NCBI GenBank assembly: GCA_947464185.1
Contig: CANHVY010000021.1
Span: 1-64,000 of the forward strand
Direction of reading: 5' to 3'
Source: Burkholderiales bacterium
GTDB lineage: Bacteria > Pseudomonadota > Gammaproteobacteria > Burkholderiales > Burkholderiaceae_C
Length of the DNA: 64,000 bases
In this document: in pieces, positions 111 to 5,122 of the stretch
How the letters are laid out: each line of letters opens with the position of its first letter
Position numbering within the stretch: position 1 is the stretch's first letter
Made by a program: the position numbers and the translations under genes
The notes under the pieces: generated by a model
The model's database searches: none
Seen by the model: only the letters and a program-made list of their open reading frames with translations
What the model was told of the DNA's origin: nothing

Positions 111-2534
111 TCAGACCCGCAAGCGGGCGCCACAGGCCGCTGCGGCACGTTGCACCGCCGCGGCCACGGTGGCGTCGATACGGGCGTCGATCAGGGTCGT
201 GGCATCGTCCAGAAGTTCGAGCCTGACGGCCAGACTGTGTTCGTCAGCGGTCATGCCGTCCACGGGTTGCGCCGGCTTGTAGATGTCGAACAGAGTGGCC
301 TGGCGCACCAGGCCCTCGGGATCCGACCGCAAGGCCCTCAACAGGGTGTCGTGCGACACATGCTCCCGTACCCACAGGGCCACGTCGCGTTGCGCTGCCT
401 GCTGCCGGGCGACAGGTTCAAACGCAGGCACTGTCCGCATCAGCACGTCGTCCAACGCAAGTTCGAAGAGCATCGGCGCCGAGGGAAGGTCTTGGGCCTG
501 TCGCCACTTGGGGTGGAGTTCACCTACATGGCCCAGCACCCGCCCATTCCATTCCACACGCGCGCACCGTCCGGGATGCATCGCCGGATGCACATCGGCA
601 TGGAAGCTCAGCGCCTGCCCGGCAAGCAGCGCTTGCAGGTCGCCTTTGACGTCGAAGAAGTCGATGGCACGTTCGCGCTCGCCCCATTGCAACTCGTCCA
701 CCGGCCCCCAGGCCAGACCCGCCACACGCGTCGGCTGGTCCACCCCCGCCACCGCTAGAGGCCCATCCTGGACTGAATCGTCACGCCTGAAGACGCGGCC
801 GATCTCGAACACCCGGACCCGGGTCGCCTTGCGCGCGAGGTTCGTCTTGAGCACGCCAACGAGGCTGCCCAGGAGCGAAGAACGCATGACCGCCAGGGGG
901 GCCGCGATGGGGTTCAGCACGCGGATCGGGTCGACGTTGCCCGCCAGTTCCAGCTCCGTGCGCTCTTCGACGAAGCTGAAACTGATGGTCTCGTGATAGC
1001 CCAGGGCGGCCAGCGATCTGCGCAGCGCGTGTGCGGATACCCTCCCTTCGCGCTGCGGACGCGAGATCACCGGCGCGTGCGGAGGGGTCGCGGGCAGGTG
1101 CTGCAGACCGATGACCCGGATGACCTCCTCGATCAGGTCTTCCTCGATGGCCAGATCAAAGCGCCACGCCGGGGGTGTGACCACCAAGGTGTCGCCCTGC
1201 TGCTCGAAGGCCAGCCCCAATCTCTGGAAAACCTGCGCGCACTGCGCAACCGTCAATGGCATGCCCAGCACCTTCGACGCACGCGGTACGCGCAAGGTGA
1301 TGGGTTGACGCTGCGGCAGCGCCAGCGTCTGGTCGTCGATGGGGCCGGCCTCACCACCACAAATCTGCTGGATCAGCGCGGTGATGTGCTCGATGTGCTG
1401 CACCGTGAGCGAGGGATCCACGCCACGCTCGAAGCGGTGTCCGGCGTCGGTGGAGAAGTTGAAACGGCGCGAACGGCCTGCCACCGCCTCGGGCCACCAG
1501 AAGGCGGCCTCGACGTAAACGTTGCGGGTGTCGTCGCTGACGGCCGTGGCGTCCCCGCCCATGATGCCGGCCAACGACTCCACGGCCTGCGTGTCCGCGA
1601 TCACCCCCACCTGCTCGTCCACTTCGATGGTGTTGCCGTTGAGCAGCTTCAAGGTCTCGCCGGGCTGCCCCCAGCGCACCACCAGCTTGTCGTGGATCTT
1701 GTCCAGATCGAAGATGTGGCTGGGCCGTCCGTACTCGAACATCACGTAATTCGAGATGTCCACCAGGGCATTCACCGAGCGCTGGCCGCAACGCGCCAGG
1801 CGGCTCACCATCCAGACGGGCGTCTGGGCGGCCGTGTTCACACCGCGCACGATGCGGCCAGAAAAGCGGCCGCAAAGATCGGCTGCCTTCACCTCCACGG
1901 GCAACTTGTCCTGATGCGTGGGACTCACCGGTGTGAAGGCGGGCGTCTTCAGGGGCGCGCCAGTCAAAGCCGAGACCTCGCGCGCAATCCCGTACACGCT
2001 CAACGCATGCCCCAGGTTGGGCGTGAGCTTCAGCGAGAACAGGGTGTCATCCAACGCCAGAGCCTCACGCACGTCCTGCCCGATGGGCGTGTCGGCGGGC
2101 AGCTCCATCAGGCCGGCATGGTCTTCCGAGAGCTTGAGCTCACGAGCAGAACACAGCATGCCGAAGCTCTCCACCCCACGCAGCTTGCCCACGCCGATCT
2201 TGAAGGGCTTGCCATCCTCTCCGGGGGGCAACTCGGCGCCCATCAGGGCCAGCGGCACGCGGATGCCCGCACGGGCGTTGGGTGCGCCACAGACGATCTG
2301 CAAAGGCCCTTGGGCGGAATGCGGTCCGGCGTCCACCTTGCACACGCGCAGCTTGTCGGCATTGGGGTGCTGCACGGCCTCGAGGATCTCGGCCACGACG
2401 ATGCCGTGGAAGGCAGGGGCGACGGGCTTCAGCTCTTCGACCTCCATGCCCGACATGGTGAGAAGCTCGGCCAAAGCTTGAGTGGTCAACGGCGGATCGC
2501 AGAACTCGCGCAGCCAGGATTCCGGGAATTGCAT
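111..2534 (-). CDS. pheT: Phenylalanine--tRNA ligase beta subunit
   Basis: This is the large subunit of the (alpha-beta)2 phenylalanyl-tRNA synthetase, which charges tRNA-Phe in the cytoplasm. At 807 aa it is full length for the family. It begins with the typical MQFPESWLREFC. An OB-fold tRNA-binding domain follows (about residues 40-150, containing VCKVDAG and VCGAPN), then the B3/B4 editing region and the B5 and catalytic-like core (HRFERGVDPSL). The C-terminal FDX-ACB anticodon-binding domain covers about the last 95 residues (PAFEPVARQQAAQRDVALWV). It lies 76 nt after pheS and 26 nt before ihfA on the same strand, so it is part of the long thrS-to-ihfA operon. Confidence 0.97.
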   Translation of the reverse strand: MQFPESWLREFCDPPLTTQALAELLTMSGMEVEELKPVAPAFHGIVVAEILEAVQHPNADKLRVCKVDAGPHSAQGPLQIVCGAPNARAGIRVPLALMGAELPPGEDGKPFKIGVGKLRGVESFGMLCSARELKLSEDHAGLMELPADTPIGQDVREALALDDTLFSLKLTPNLGHALSVYGIAREVSALTGAPLKTPAFTPVSPTHQDKLPVEVKAADLCGRFSGRIVRGVNTAAQTPVWMVSRLARCGQRSVNALVDISNYVMFEYGRPSHIFDLDKIHDKLVVRWGQPGETLKLLNGNTIEVDEQVGVIADTQAVESLAGIMGGDATAVSDDTRNVYVEAAFWWPEAVAGRSRRFNFSTDAGHRFERGVDPSLTVQHIEHITALIQQICGGEAGPIDDQTLALPQRQPITLRVPRASKVLGMPLTVAQCAQVFQRLGLAFEQQGDTLVVTPPAWRFDLAIEEDLIEEVIRVIGLQHLPATPPHAPVISRPQREGRVSAHALRRSLAALGYHETISFSFVEERTELELAGNVDPIRVLNPIAAPLAVMRSSLLGSLVGVLKTNLARKATRVRVFEIGRVFRRDDSVQDGPLAVAGVDQPTRVAGLAWGPVDELQWGERERAIDFFDVKGDLQALLAGQALSFHADVHPAMHPGRCARVEWNGRVLGHVGELHPKWRQAQDLPSAPMLFELALDDVLMRTVPAFEPVARQQAAQRDVALWVREHVSHDTLLRALRSDPEGLVRQATLFDIYKPAQPVDGMTADEHSLAVRLELLDDATTLIDARIDATVAAAVQRAAAACGARLRV

Positions 2535-2610: not shown

Positions 2611-3654
2611 TCAGCGGAACTGCGACAGGAAGCGCAGGTCGTTCTCGAAGAAGAGTCGCAAATCGCTGACGCCGTAGCGCAGCATGGTCAGGCGGTCGGG
2701 GCCCATGCCGAAGGCGAAGCCGATGTATCGCTCCGGGTCCAGGCCGTAGTTGCGCACCACGTTCGGGTGCACCTGGCCAGAGCCCGCCAGTTCGAGCCAG
2801 CGGCCTTTCAGCGGGCCGGTGGCGAACATCATGTCGATCTCGGCGCTGGGCTCGGTGAAGGGAAAGTAGCTGGGACGAAACCGTGTCTCGATGCCTTCAT
2901 CCTCGAAGAACCGACGCAGGAAGTCGGTGAAGACGACCTTCAGATCTTTGAAACTGATGTGTTCGCCGATCCACAGTCCCTCGCATTGATGAAACATCGG
3001 CGAGTGCGTGGCATCGCTGTCCACGCGGTAGGTGCGGCCCGGCGCGATCACGCGGATCTCGGGCATCGGGTCCTGGCCGGCATGGGCCGCAGCGTGCATG
3101 CGGGCGTAGCGTACCTGCATGGGGCTGGTGTGTGGGCGCAGGTTGAGCCAGCGCCCGTCAGCGTCCTTCACGTCCACGTAGAAGGTGTCCTGCATCGAAC
3201 GCGCCGGGTGATTCTCCGGGTTGTTCAAGGCCGTGAAGCTCATCCAGTCGGTCTCGATCTCGGGGCCTTCGGCCACGTCAAAACCCATGGAGCCGAAGAT
3301 GGCCTCGATGCGCTCGATCGTGCGGCTGACCGGATGCAGGCTGCCCGGCCCTCTCTGACGGCCGGGCAGCGTGACATCCAGGGCCTGGGCCTTCAACTGC
3401 GCCTGCAGTTCAGCGTCGGCCAAGGCCTCGCGACGGGCCTGCAGAGCCTGCTCGATGCCCATTTTCAATCGGTTGATGTCAGCGCCGCGGGATTTCTTTT
3501 CCTCGGGGCTCAAAGCGCCCAAGCCTTTGAGCAGCTCGGTCACGCGACCGAACTTGCCGAGGAAGCGGGCCTTGGCGTTCTCCAGTTCTGCTGCGGTGGG
3601 TGCAGCATCAAACTCGGAGGCAGCCTGCGCGAGCAGGGGATCGAGATCGTTCAT
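2611..3654 (-). CDS. pheS: Phenylalanine--tRNA ligase alpha subunit
   Basis: This is the catalytic alpha subunit of phenylalanyl-tRNA synthetase, a class II enzyme that forms Phe-AMP and transfers Phe to tRNA-Phe together with PheT. The 347-aa length is normal. An N-terminal coiled-coil arm (about residues 1-90) precedes the class II core. Visible core motifs are [14 protein letters not shown] (motif 1 region), FHQCEGLWI (motif 2 region) and [13 protein letters not shown] (motif 3). The gene follows rplT by about 105 nt. That gap holds a strong hairpin and then an intrinsic terminator (separate entries), so its expression is probably attenuated relative to the upstream ribosomal genes. Confidence 0.97.
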
Positions 3655-3686
3655 CGGATGCGTTGGGGTAAACGACGTCGGAAACG

Positions 3687-3716
3687 AAAAGAGGCCGCCA
3701 CGAGGTGACGGCCTCT
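3687..3716 (-). terminator. Intrinsic terminator/attenuator between rplT and pheS
   Basis: On the minus strand a perfect 8-bp stem, AGAGGCCG/CGGCCTCT, is followed directly by TTTT. Its loop contains CACCTCGTG, which can itself pair and lengthen the helix. It sits 43 nt downstream of the rplT stop and about 30 nt upstream of the pheS ATG. Because both neighbours are read in the same direction, it should act as a partial terminator that lowers pheST relative to rplT. E. coli pheST is also attenuated, through the PheM leader peptide. I see no Phe-rich leader ORF here, so the read-through mechanism is unknown. Confidence 0.75.
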
Positions 3717-3728
3717 GGAATGCTTGCC

Positions 3729-3753
3729 GGCACCAGGGGGCTGCCCCGGTGCC
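3729..3753 (-). promoter_or_regulatory. Second strong hairpin in the rplT-pheS spacer
   Basis: GGCACC pairs with GGTGCC, and an inner GGGG pairs with CCCC around a small loop, with a one-base bulge. The hairpin lies just after the rplT stop and before the terminator hairpin and has no T-run. It could protect the rplT mRNA 3' end, act as a processing site, or compete in folding with the downstream terminator. The role is inferred; only the fold potential is visible. Confidence 0.45.
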
Positions 3754-3759
3754 GCATCA

Positions 3760-4116
3760 TCAAGCCAGTTGAGCCTTCACCTTGTCCACGATGCTGGCAA
3801 AGCCAGCAGGGTCGTTGACAGCCAGATCGGCGAGGACCTTGCGGTCGATGTCGATCTGCGCCTTCTTCAGGCCGGCCATGAACTTGCTGTAGGTGACGCC
3901 CATCGACCGGGAAGCCGCGTTGATACGGGCGATCCACAGTTGACGGAACACCCGCTTGCGGGTGCGGCGGTCACGGTAGGCGTACTGACCGGCCTTCATC
4001 ACCGCCTGCTTGGCGATGCGGAAGACGTTCTTGCGGCGGCCGCGGAAGCCCTTGGCGAGCTTCAGGATCTTCTTGTGGCGGGCGTGTGCGGTGACACCAC
4101 GTTTGACGCGAGGCAT
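3760..4116 (-). CDS. rplT: 50S ribosomal protein L20
   Basis: L20 is needed early in 50S assembly and binds 23S rRNA. The 118-aa length is standard and the basic sequence opens [19 protein letters not shown], followed by the conserved GYRGRR-like GFRGRRKN and [16 protein letters not shown] segments. It follows rpmI by 29 nt. In E. coli L20 represses rpmI-rplT translation by binding the leader mRNA. Whether that operator exists here cannot be decided by eye, although strong hairpins occupy the infC-rpmI spacer. Confidence 0.98.
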
Positions 4117-4349: not shown

Positions 4350-4506
4350 GACTGCTCCTGTTGTTGGACACCTTTGCAGGCGACCGCAAACCTCGCGGTG
4401 CTTGTTGGGCCTGCATCGGCTTGTAGTCGGCTCTTTCGTGGGCTTGCACCCGCTCGGGAACCCTCATCATCAGCCCGCCCCGTTTCCGGGAGCCGGCTGT
4501 TTCAGC

Positions 4507-4571
4507 CGTCTGCCGGAAAGCCCGGCAGACGAGTGATCTTCAAAAAAACTCCGGCCTCGAAGGATCCGAGG
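4507..4571 (-). promoter_or_regulatory. infC-rpmI spacer hairpins with T-run
   Basis: Three nucleotides after the infC stop, the minus strand can form a CCTCG/CGAGG stem, or a bulged CTCGG/CCGGAG stem that abuts seven T residues (4542-4548). This is a plausible weak terminator. Ten bases beyond the T-run is a perfect 10-bp hairpin, CGTCTGCCGG/CCGGCAGACG, with a 5-nt loop (4507-4531). Together they make a structured leader of about 224 nt in front of rpmI. This is the place where E. coli has the L20 translational operator and an internal promoter. Function is inferred from position and fold only. Confidence 0.5.
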
Positions 4572-4573
4572 TC

Positions 4574-5122
4574 CTACTTGCGCTTGGGCGCCAGCACCAT
4601 GATCATCTGGCGGCCTTCAAGCTTGGGCATGTGTTCCACGACCGCCACGTCGGCCAGCTCGTCACGGATGCGCTCCAACAGGCGCATGCCGATGTCCTGG
4701 TGCGTGATCTCGCGGCCGCGGAACCGCAGTGTGACCTTGCCCTTGTCGCCGTCATCGGCGATGAAGCGCCGCAGGTTGCGCATCTTGATCTGGTAGTCAC
4801 CCTCGTCGGTGCCCGGACGGAACTTGACTTCCTTGATCTCGATGACCTTTTGCTTGGACTTGGCCTCCGCGGCCTTCTTCTGCTCCTGGTACTTGAACTT
4901 GCCGTAGTCCATGAGGCGACACACCGGAGGGTCTGCCACAGCCGCGATCTCGACCAGATCTACATCGAGCTCACCGGCCATTCGAAGCGCGTCCATCAAG
5001 CTGACGATGCCGAGCGGCTCATTCTCGACACCGTTGAGGCGCACCTGCGGCGCCATGATTTCGCGGTTCAGCCTGTGCTTGCGCTCCGCGTTCGGCACGC
5101 GGCGGTCCATGAAGGTAGCGAT
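4574..5122 (-). CDS. infC: Translation initiation factor IF-3 (AUC start)
   Basis: IF-3 dissociates idle ribosomes and proofreads the initiator tRNA-start codon match. The ORF track begins at an ATG (5110). I place the start four codons upstream at an in-frame ATC (5122-5120). It has a GAGGGG Shine-Dalgarno sequence exactly 8 nt before it, while the ATG would be 20 nt away. This gives (I)[21 protein letters not shown], in line with related proteins. Use of a non-AUG start is the known basis of infC autoregulation (AUU in E. coli). The N-domain ([13 protein letters not shown]), linker, and C-domain ([12 protein letters not shown]) are intact. The C-terminus ends APKRK. Confidence 0.93.

Follow-up and report, generated by a model that had tools for sequence, protein, structure and literature searches.

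A widely conserved intrinsic terminator between rplT and pheS in a Burkholderiales operon without a PheM leader

The spacer between rplT and pheS carries, in the 64,000-nucleotide stretch of Burkholderiales DNA analysed here (the window), a real, mostly ordinary and widely conserved intrinsic terminator without the Phe-rich leader peptide PheM. It is proposed, with a probability of roughly 0.65, that this is a partial terminator inside the operon which, together with weak initiation at pheS and pheT, keeps the synthetase far below the ribosomal protein. The terminator would end most thrS-infC-rpmI-rplT transcripts after rplT and let a minority read on into pheS-pheT, with the result that far more L35 and L20 would be made than phenylalanyl-tRNA synthetase; inefficient initiation of translation at pheS and pheT, genes mostly devoid of a Shine-Dalgarno sequence, would shift the ratio in the same direction. 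Read-through would thus be the main source of pheST mRNA, and stoichiometry presumably the selected function. No literature on rplT-pheS read-through in Burkholderiales was found, and the present analysis adds the distribution of the terminator, the missing Shine-Dalgarno sequence of pheS in Burkholderiales and a testable candidate antiterminator strand at the end of rplT.

The genome assembly of the window consists of 169 contigs, and its closest named relatives, judged by the comparison of RplT, are Rubrivivax and Aquincola. The genes form one continuous operon, as the first-pass annotation had said, in the order thrS-infC-rpmI-rplT-pheS-pheT (Table 1), and the hairpin and T-run terminator that it had placed between rplT and pheS are found within the coordinates it gave, hairpin H1 exactly at its 3729-3753 and terminator T at 3716-3690. 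The terminator T possesses a 12-bp stem with 8 GC pairs and the loop CUC, followed by TTTTCGTTTCC; the site as a whole—a GC-rich hairpin with an immediate U-tract (TTTTCGTTT)—has the build of an intrinsic, i.e. Rho-independent, terminator. The distance from H1 to T is 12 nt. The folding energy of the spacer, −52.3 kcal/mol, lies well below the mean of 200 dinucleotide shuffles of the same spacer (−35.2, sd 3.6; z −4.8), none of which folded as low. A simple terminator scan over 9 kb returned 8 sites against 5.3 expected, a count that is not significant; the longest stem among the 8 belongs to the rplT-pheS site.

Table 1 Features of the operon and of the rplT-pheS spacer in the window
Feature	Position	Strand	Basis and remarks
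thrS	7102-5195	minus	operon order thrS-infC-rpmI-rplT-pheS-pheT
infC	5110-4574	minus	operon member
rpmI	4349-4146	minus	operon member
rplT (ribosomal protein L20)	3760..4116	minus	open frame and tblastn match; stop TGA 3762-3760
Candidate antiterminator strand GGTGAAGGCT	3772..3781	minus	last rplT codons (V-K-A); complementary to terminator 5′ arm; function inferred
rplT-pheS spacer	3655-3759 (105 nt)	minus	holds hairpin H1 and terminator T
Hairpin H1	3729..3753	minus	fold; 10 bp, GC-rich, directly 3′ of rplT stop
Intrinsic terminator hairpin T, AGAGGCCGTCACCTCGTGGCGGCCTCT	3690..3716	minus	terminator scan, fold, same place in relatives
Terminator 5′ arm GGCCGTCACC	3704..3713	minus	entropy and parsimony asymmetry; conserved beyond own pairing
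U-tract	3680..3689	minus	sequence; last stem T continues the tract
Stretch between U-tract and pheS start	3655..3679	minus	without promoter-like site and Shine-Dalgarno core
pheS (phenylalanyl-tRNA synthetase alpha subunit)	2611..3654	minus	open frame and tblastn matches; start 3654
pheT (phenylalanyl-tRNA synthetase beta subunit)	111..2534	minus	open frame

Several further features of the operon should be mentioned here in their own right. In the thrS leader, a terminator-like hairpin with a T-run (7146-7123, minus strand) lies about 20 nt before the thrS ATG, and a short frame, ATGACCCATGAAGCG..., starting at about 7156 overlaps the thrS start; the hairpin is a possible premature terminator for the entire operon. 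The frame of infC is open 5′ of its ATG (5110) up to an in-frame ATC (ATC GCT ACC TTC ATG, 5110-5122, minus strand); since genes of IF3 often use an unusual start codon, the annotated start may be wrong. The infC-rpmI spacer (4350-4573, minus strand) is long, 224 nt, and contains several hairpins as well as a terminator-like site with seven T after it (4562-4549); it is a place to look for L20 autoregulation. Concerning L20 itself, an L20-like protein is encoded in 15 phage records (e.g. MT121966, MK672802 and MK672805), representing either host DNA inside prophage records or genuine phage genes.

For the distribution of the terminator, rplT-pheS spacers were gathered from 261 loci covering the genus, named Burkholderiales, other Burkholderiales families, other Gammaproteobacteria and further Proteobacteria. 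A terminator is present in 67 of the 69 genus spacers, in 77/78 spacers of named relatives, in 51/62 of the other, order-level Burkholderiales, in 31/32 of the other Gammaproteobacteria and in 9/15 of the remaining Proteobacteria. It is thus conserved at the same place, as befits a genuine intrinsic terminator, and its recurrence there in most of the approximately 260 related loci rules out chance. The sequence is typical of the clade: GGCCGUCACC...GGCGGCC in the genus, CAAGGGCUAG...CUAGCCCUUG in Comamonadaceae, AAAGGAGGC...GCCUCCUUU in many other families and AUAGGGGAAGAGC...GCUCUUCCCCUAU in a set of gamma loci.

The main reason for reading the terminator as a dose-setting element is its position with respect to translation signals. 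Within the genus, a Shine-Dalgarno core precedes rplT in 54/54 and rpmI in 47/47 distinct upstream regions, pheT in 5/57 and pheS in none of 64 (3655-3674 in the window and its counterparts in relatives). The core is likewise missing before pheS in 62 of the 63 named Burkholderiales; it is found there in all 12 other gamma loci. In the genus and its relatives few pheT regions have the core, whereas those of rplT and rpmI almost always do. The terminator sits exactly where ribosomal-protein genes with strong initiation signals give way to synthetase genes devoid of a Shine-Dalgarno sequence, a missing core being, however, no proof of weak initiation. The arrangement resembles the rplL-rpoB attenuator of E. 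coli, where a partial terminator separates ribosomal-protein genes from those of RNA polymerase. In both cases, a terminator—probably a partial one in the window—stands within one operon between ribosomal-protein genes and a less needed enzyme; the genes are different, and a possible pairing with the end of the preceding coding sequence is an additional feature of the window. Of the two explanations left side by side by the first-pass annotation, stoichiometry is the better supported one, and for the other, a different read-through control, there is now a concrete although unproven candidate.

That candidate concerns the 5′ arm of the terminator, the conservation of which exceeds the need of a plain terminator and is unexplained by a purely constitutive device. 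It may tentatively be supposed that a regulated attenuator without a leader peptide operates on top of the stoichiometric effect, with the end of rplT as its antiterminator strand. The last rplT codons, GGUGAAGGCY, to which the arm GGCCGUCACC is complementary, would pair with it and, enclosing H1, form the antiterminator. A ribosome at the rplT end would cover these codons and allow the terminator to form, whereas a bare rplT end—due to poor translation or to a stall at the last Phe codon (3801-3799)—would favour the antiterminator and transcription of pheST. This codon precedes the pairing strand (3781-3772) by 17 nt, so that a ribosome stalled on it should keep clear of the strand, whereas one that has reached the stop codon would mask it. 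Such ribosome gating is inferred from the geometry; requirements of the protein may account for the retention of the Phe codon, and a single one would make a weak sensor. The first-pass annotation had suggested looking for an alternative pairing with the hairpin at 3729-3753, i.e. H1. In the window a match to H1 can be picked out by eye, but relatives do not share it, and H1 was rejected as the partner because its sequence, unlike that of the terminator arm, is not conserved; it is the structure of H1 that has been kept, as judged from the fold, the alignment and a mean z of −2.3 in 63 genus loci.

The evidence pointing to the switch comes in the first place from the unequal conservation of the two arms. 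In the 64 anchored genus loci, the 5′-arm positions following GUC (A, C, C) exhibit entropies of 0.23, 0.27 and 0.74 bits, and their 3′ counterparts 1.15, 1.54 and 1.72 bits, whereas the rplI terminator of the same genus, used as a control, is symmetric in this respect; the rplS terminators were too irregular to serve as such. On a tree built without the rplT tail, parsimony requires one step at each of positions 2, 4 and 5 of the 5′ side but 9, 5 and 13 steps at their 3′ counterparts. It should be noted that wobble (position 2) and differences in loop size or register (position 5) account for part of the asymmetry. The invariant A stands out most clearly; as the hairpins were read here, it forms a pair in some species but a bulge or a mismatch in others. 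As regards folding, in the RNA ending in the terminator loop the strand of the window is paired with a probability near 1, and the pairing of the rplT end with the 5′ arm reaches a median of 0.98, exceeding 0.5 in 49/51 loci; with the complete terminator, the median falls to 0.07, although 14/51 loci still exceed 0.5. The two folds of the window, −67.8 kcal/mol for the alternative and −69.8 kcal/mol for the terminator, are nearly isoenergetic, with little covariation. Finally, in both lineages in which the codon GTG has changed to GTC (L016; L279 with L257) the UCACC arm is gone, L257 being a genus member with no recognisable GGCC-type terminator in its rplT-pheS spacer, and across the family GGUGA and CACC/UCAC occur together (Fisher p 1e-5, kinship ignored), an association strengthened by the correction by eye of two loci, L018 and L047, that the co-occurrence script had miscalled.

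Against the switch, many other codons of rplT are at least as conserved as GTG, and the synonymous constraint on GTG is not exceptional. An inner helix, tried between the rplT stop region and CAAGC before the terminator, shows no covariation. The native pairing only slightly surpasses the permuted ones in the genus, 9/1000 of which were as good, a signal probably driven by the GTC loci, and in the other defined clades there is no specific signal; the heterogeneous group of the remaining loci scores low but mixes compositions, and was left out of the interpretation. Compared with coding windows of the same locus, the pairing in the window yields p 0.046. Mismatched loci occur in both directions, L052 and L057 keeping CACC without GGUGA, and L259 and L263 having GGUGA without CACC; GTG and UCACC have been lost jointly, but no compensatory change was found. 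Since the covariation is thin, the permutation support weak and the loss joint only, the switch is held to be possible yet rather doubtful. GUCACC was also considered as a general terminator motif: the genome contains AGGCCGTCACC 29 times, and the hairpin-form matches listed at other sites, compared by their inserts, carry different ones. One of the closest known systems is the L20 leader attenuator of Bacillus subtilis (reviewed in PMC10931766), with which the window shares two alternative folds, one of them a terminator, in an infC-rpmI-rplT operon; the B. subtilis leader, however, precedes infC and responds to L20, whereas the element of the window follows rplT.

The pheST genes are essential, and transcription past the terminator must therefore come from something. 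Besides read-through, the source could be a promoter of their own, located, e.g., inside rplT or just upstream of the hairpins, with the terminator marking a full end of the operon. Such an arrangement exists in relatives, since promoter-like sites follow the terminator in several order-level and gamma loci with a long stretch there (9/82 loci). A scan restricted to sigma-70-like sites, however, revealed none, neither near rplT-pheS in the window nor downstream of the terminator in the 67 genus loci, where the median distance from the terminator stem to the pheS ATG is 25 nt, against 35 nt in the window. A strong pheS promoter beyond the hairpin, which the first-pass annotation had named as one finding that would tell against its reading, has thus not emerged, and with respect to sigma-70-like sites, the terminator lacks a separate downstream promoter, as expected of a stoichiometric intra-operon terminator of the rplL-rpoB type. 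Near-complete termination combined with a non-consensus promoter upstream of the terminator, e.g. inside rplT, could still account for the observations at the expense of the stoichiometric reading, but a promoter upstream of the hairpins would itself need read-through of the terminator; an independent pheST promoter is accordingly considered unlikely.

Much less probable still is a small RNA derived from the 3′-UTR, released from the rplT end and using the conserved 5′ arm as its seed: the arm is indeed conserved while H1 and the flanks are not, but a seed would be unusual where the conserved stretch is found, within the terminator stem, and the Rfam covariance models (the Phe leader and other families, the comparison with the L20 leader included) gave no match to the element of the window at the gathering score, those at E up to 5 being at chance level.

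The least credible reading, a PheM-type attenuation with a Phe-rich leader overlooked by the first-pass annotation, can be dismissed. All spacers were scanned for short frames in which 8 codons include 4 or more Phe. Such a frame was found in just 3/69 genus spacers; these three frames are not conserved and owe their Phe codons to the U-tract that follows the terminator hairpin. None was found in the window, the short frames of which have at most 2 Phe per 8 codons, while the same scan recovered PheM in all five enteric loci taken as a positive control and a PheM-like peptide (MPTLFFFSFFFTS) together with a terminator in a locus from another family (L190). The window thus has no Phe-rich short frame before the terminator, nor do the genus spacers share a conserved Phe-rich peptide, in agreement with the absence of such a frame in the original annotation; a frame starting from the TGATG overlap at the rplT stop, an overlap present in 14/70 genus loci, was also considered, and no conserved peptide was seen in it.

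The attenuation of pheST by pheM has been described (PMC5371410), and the first-pass annotation had set the window against it. The contrast holds as far as the missing PheM is concerned, but in the enteric loci (L172, L173, L178, L179 and L183, the spacer of the last matching the annotated E. coli rplT-pheM-pheS region) a terminator also stands directly after rplT, with the PheM frame and its attenuator following. From this order, the terminator of the window corresponds to the rplT-proximal one of enterics, and PheM represents an extra layer of some lineages. The window and the E. coli rplT-pheM-pheST region (the Rfam 'Phe leader') thus share the gene order and the rplT-proximal terminator, whereas the window possesses neither the PheM peptide nor a second attenuator after the rplT terminator, with only 35 nt left between the terminator stem and pheS. 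The window simply has no PheM layer, as is the case for most of the sampled Gammaproteobacteria.

Based on the above results, a terminator after rplT without the PheM layer is the common state in the sampled Gammaproteobacteria. Under the stoichiometric reading preferred here, the synthetase in Burkholderiales may be kept at its low dose by two steps, transcription and the initiation of translation. For the Rubrivivax group, it is a tentative and rather improbable suggestion that the tail of the rplT frame also serves as the antiterminator strand of a pheST switch. If this were true, a ribosomal-protein gene would replace the leader peptide in attenuation, the synthetase would continue to be expressed despite failing translation of the ribosomal-protein gene before it, and other coding genes may conceal comparable switches at their ends.
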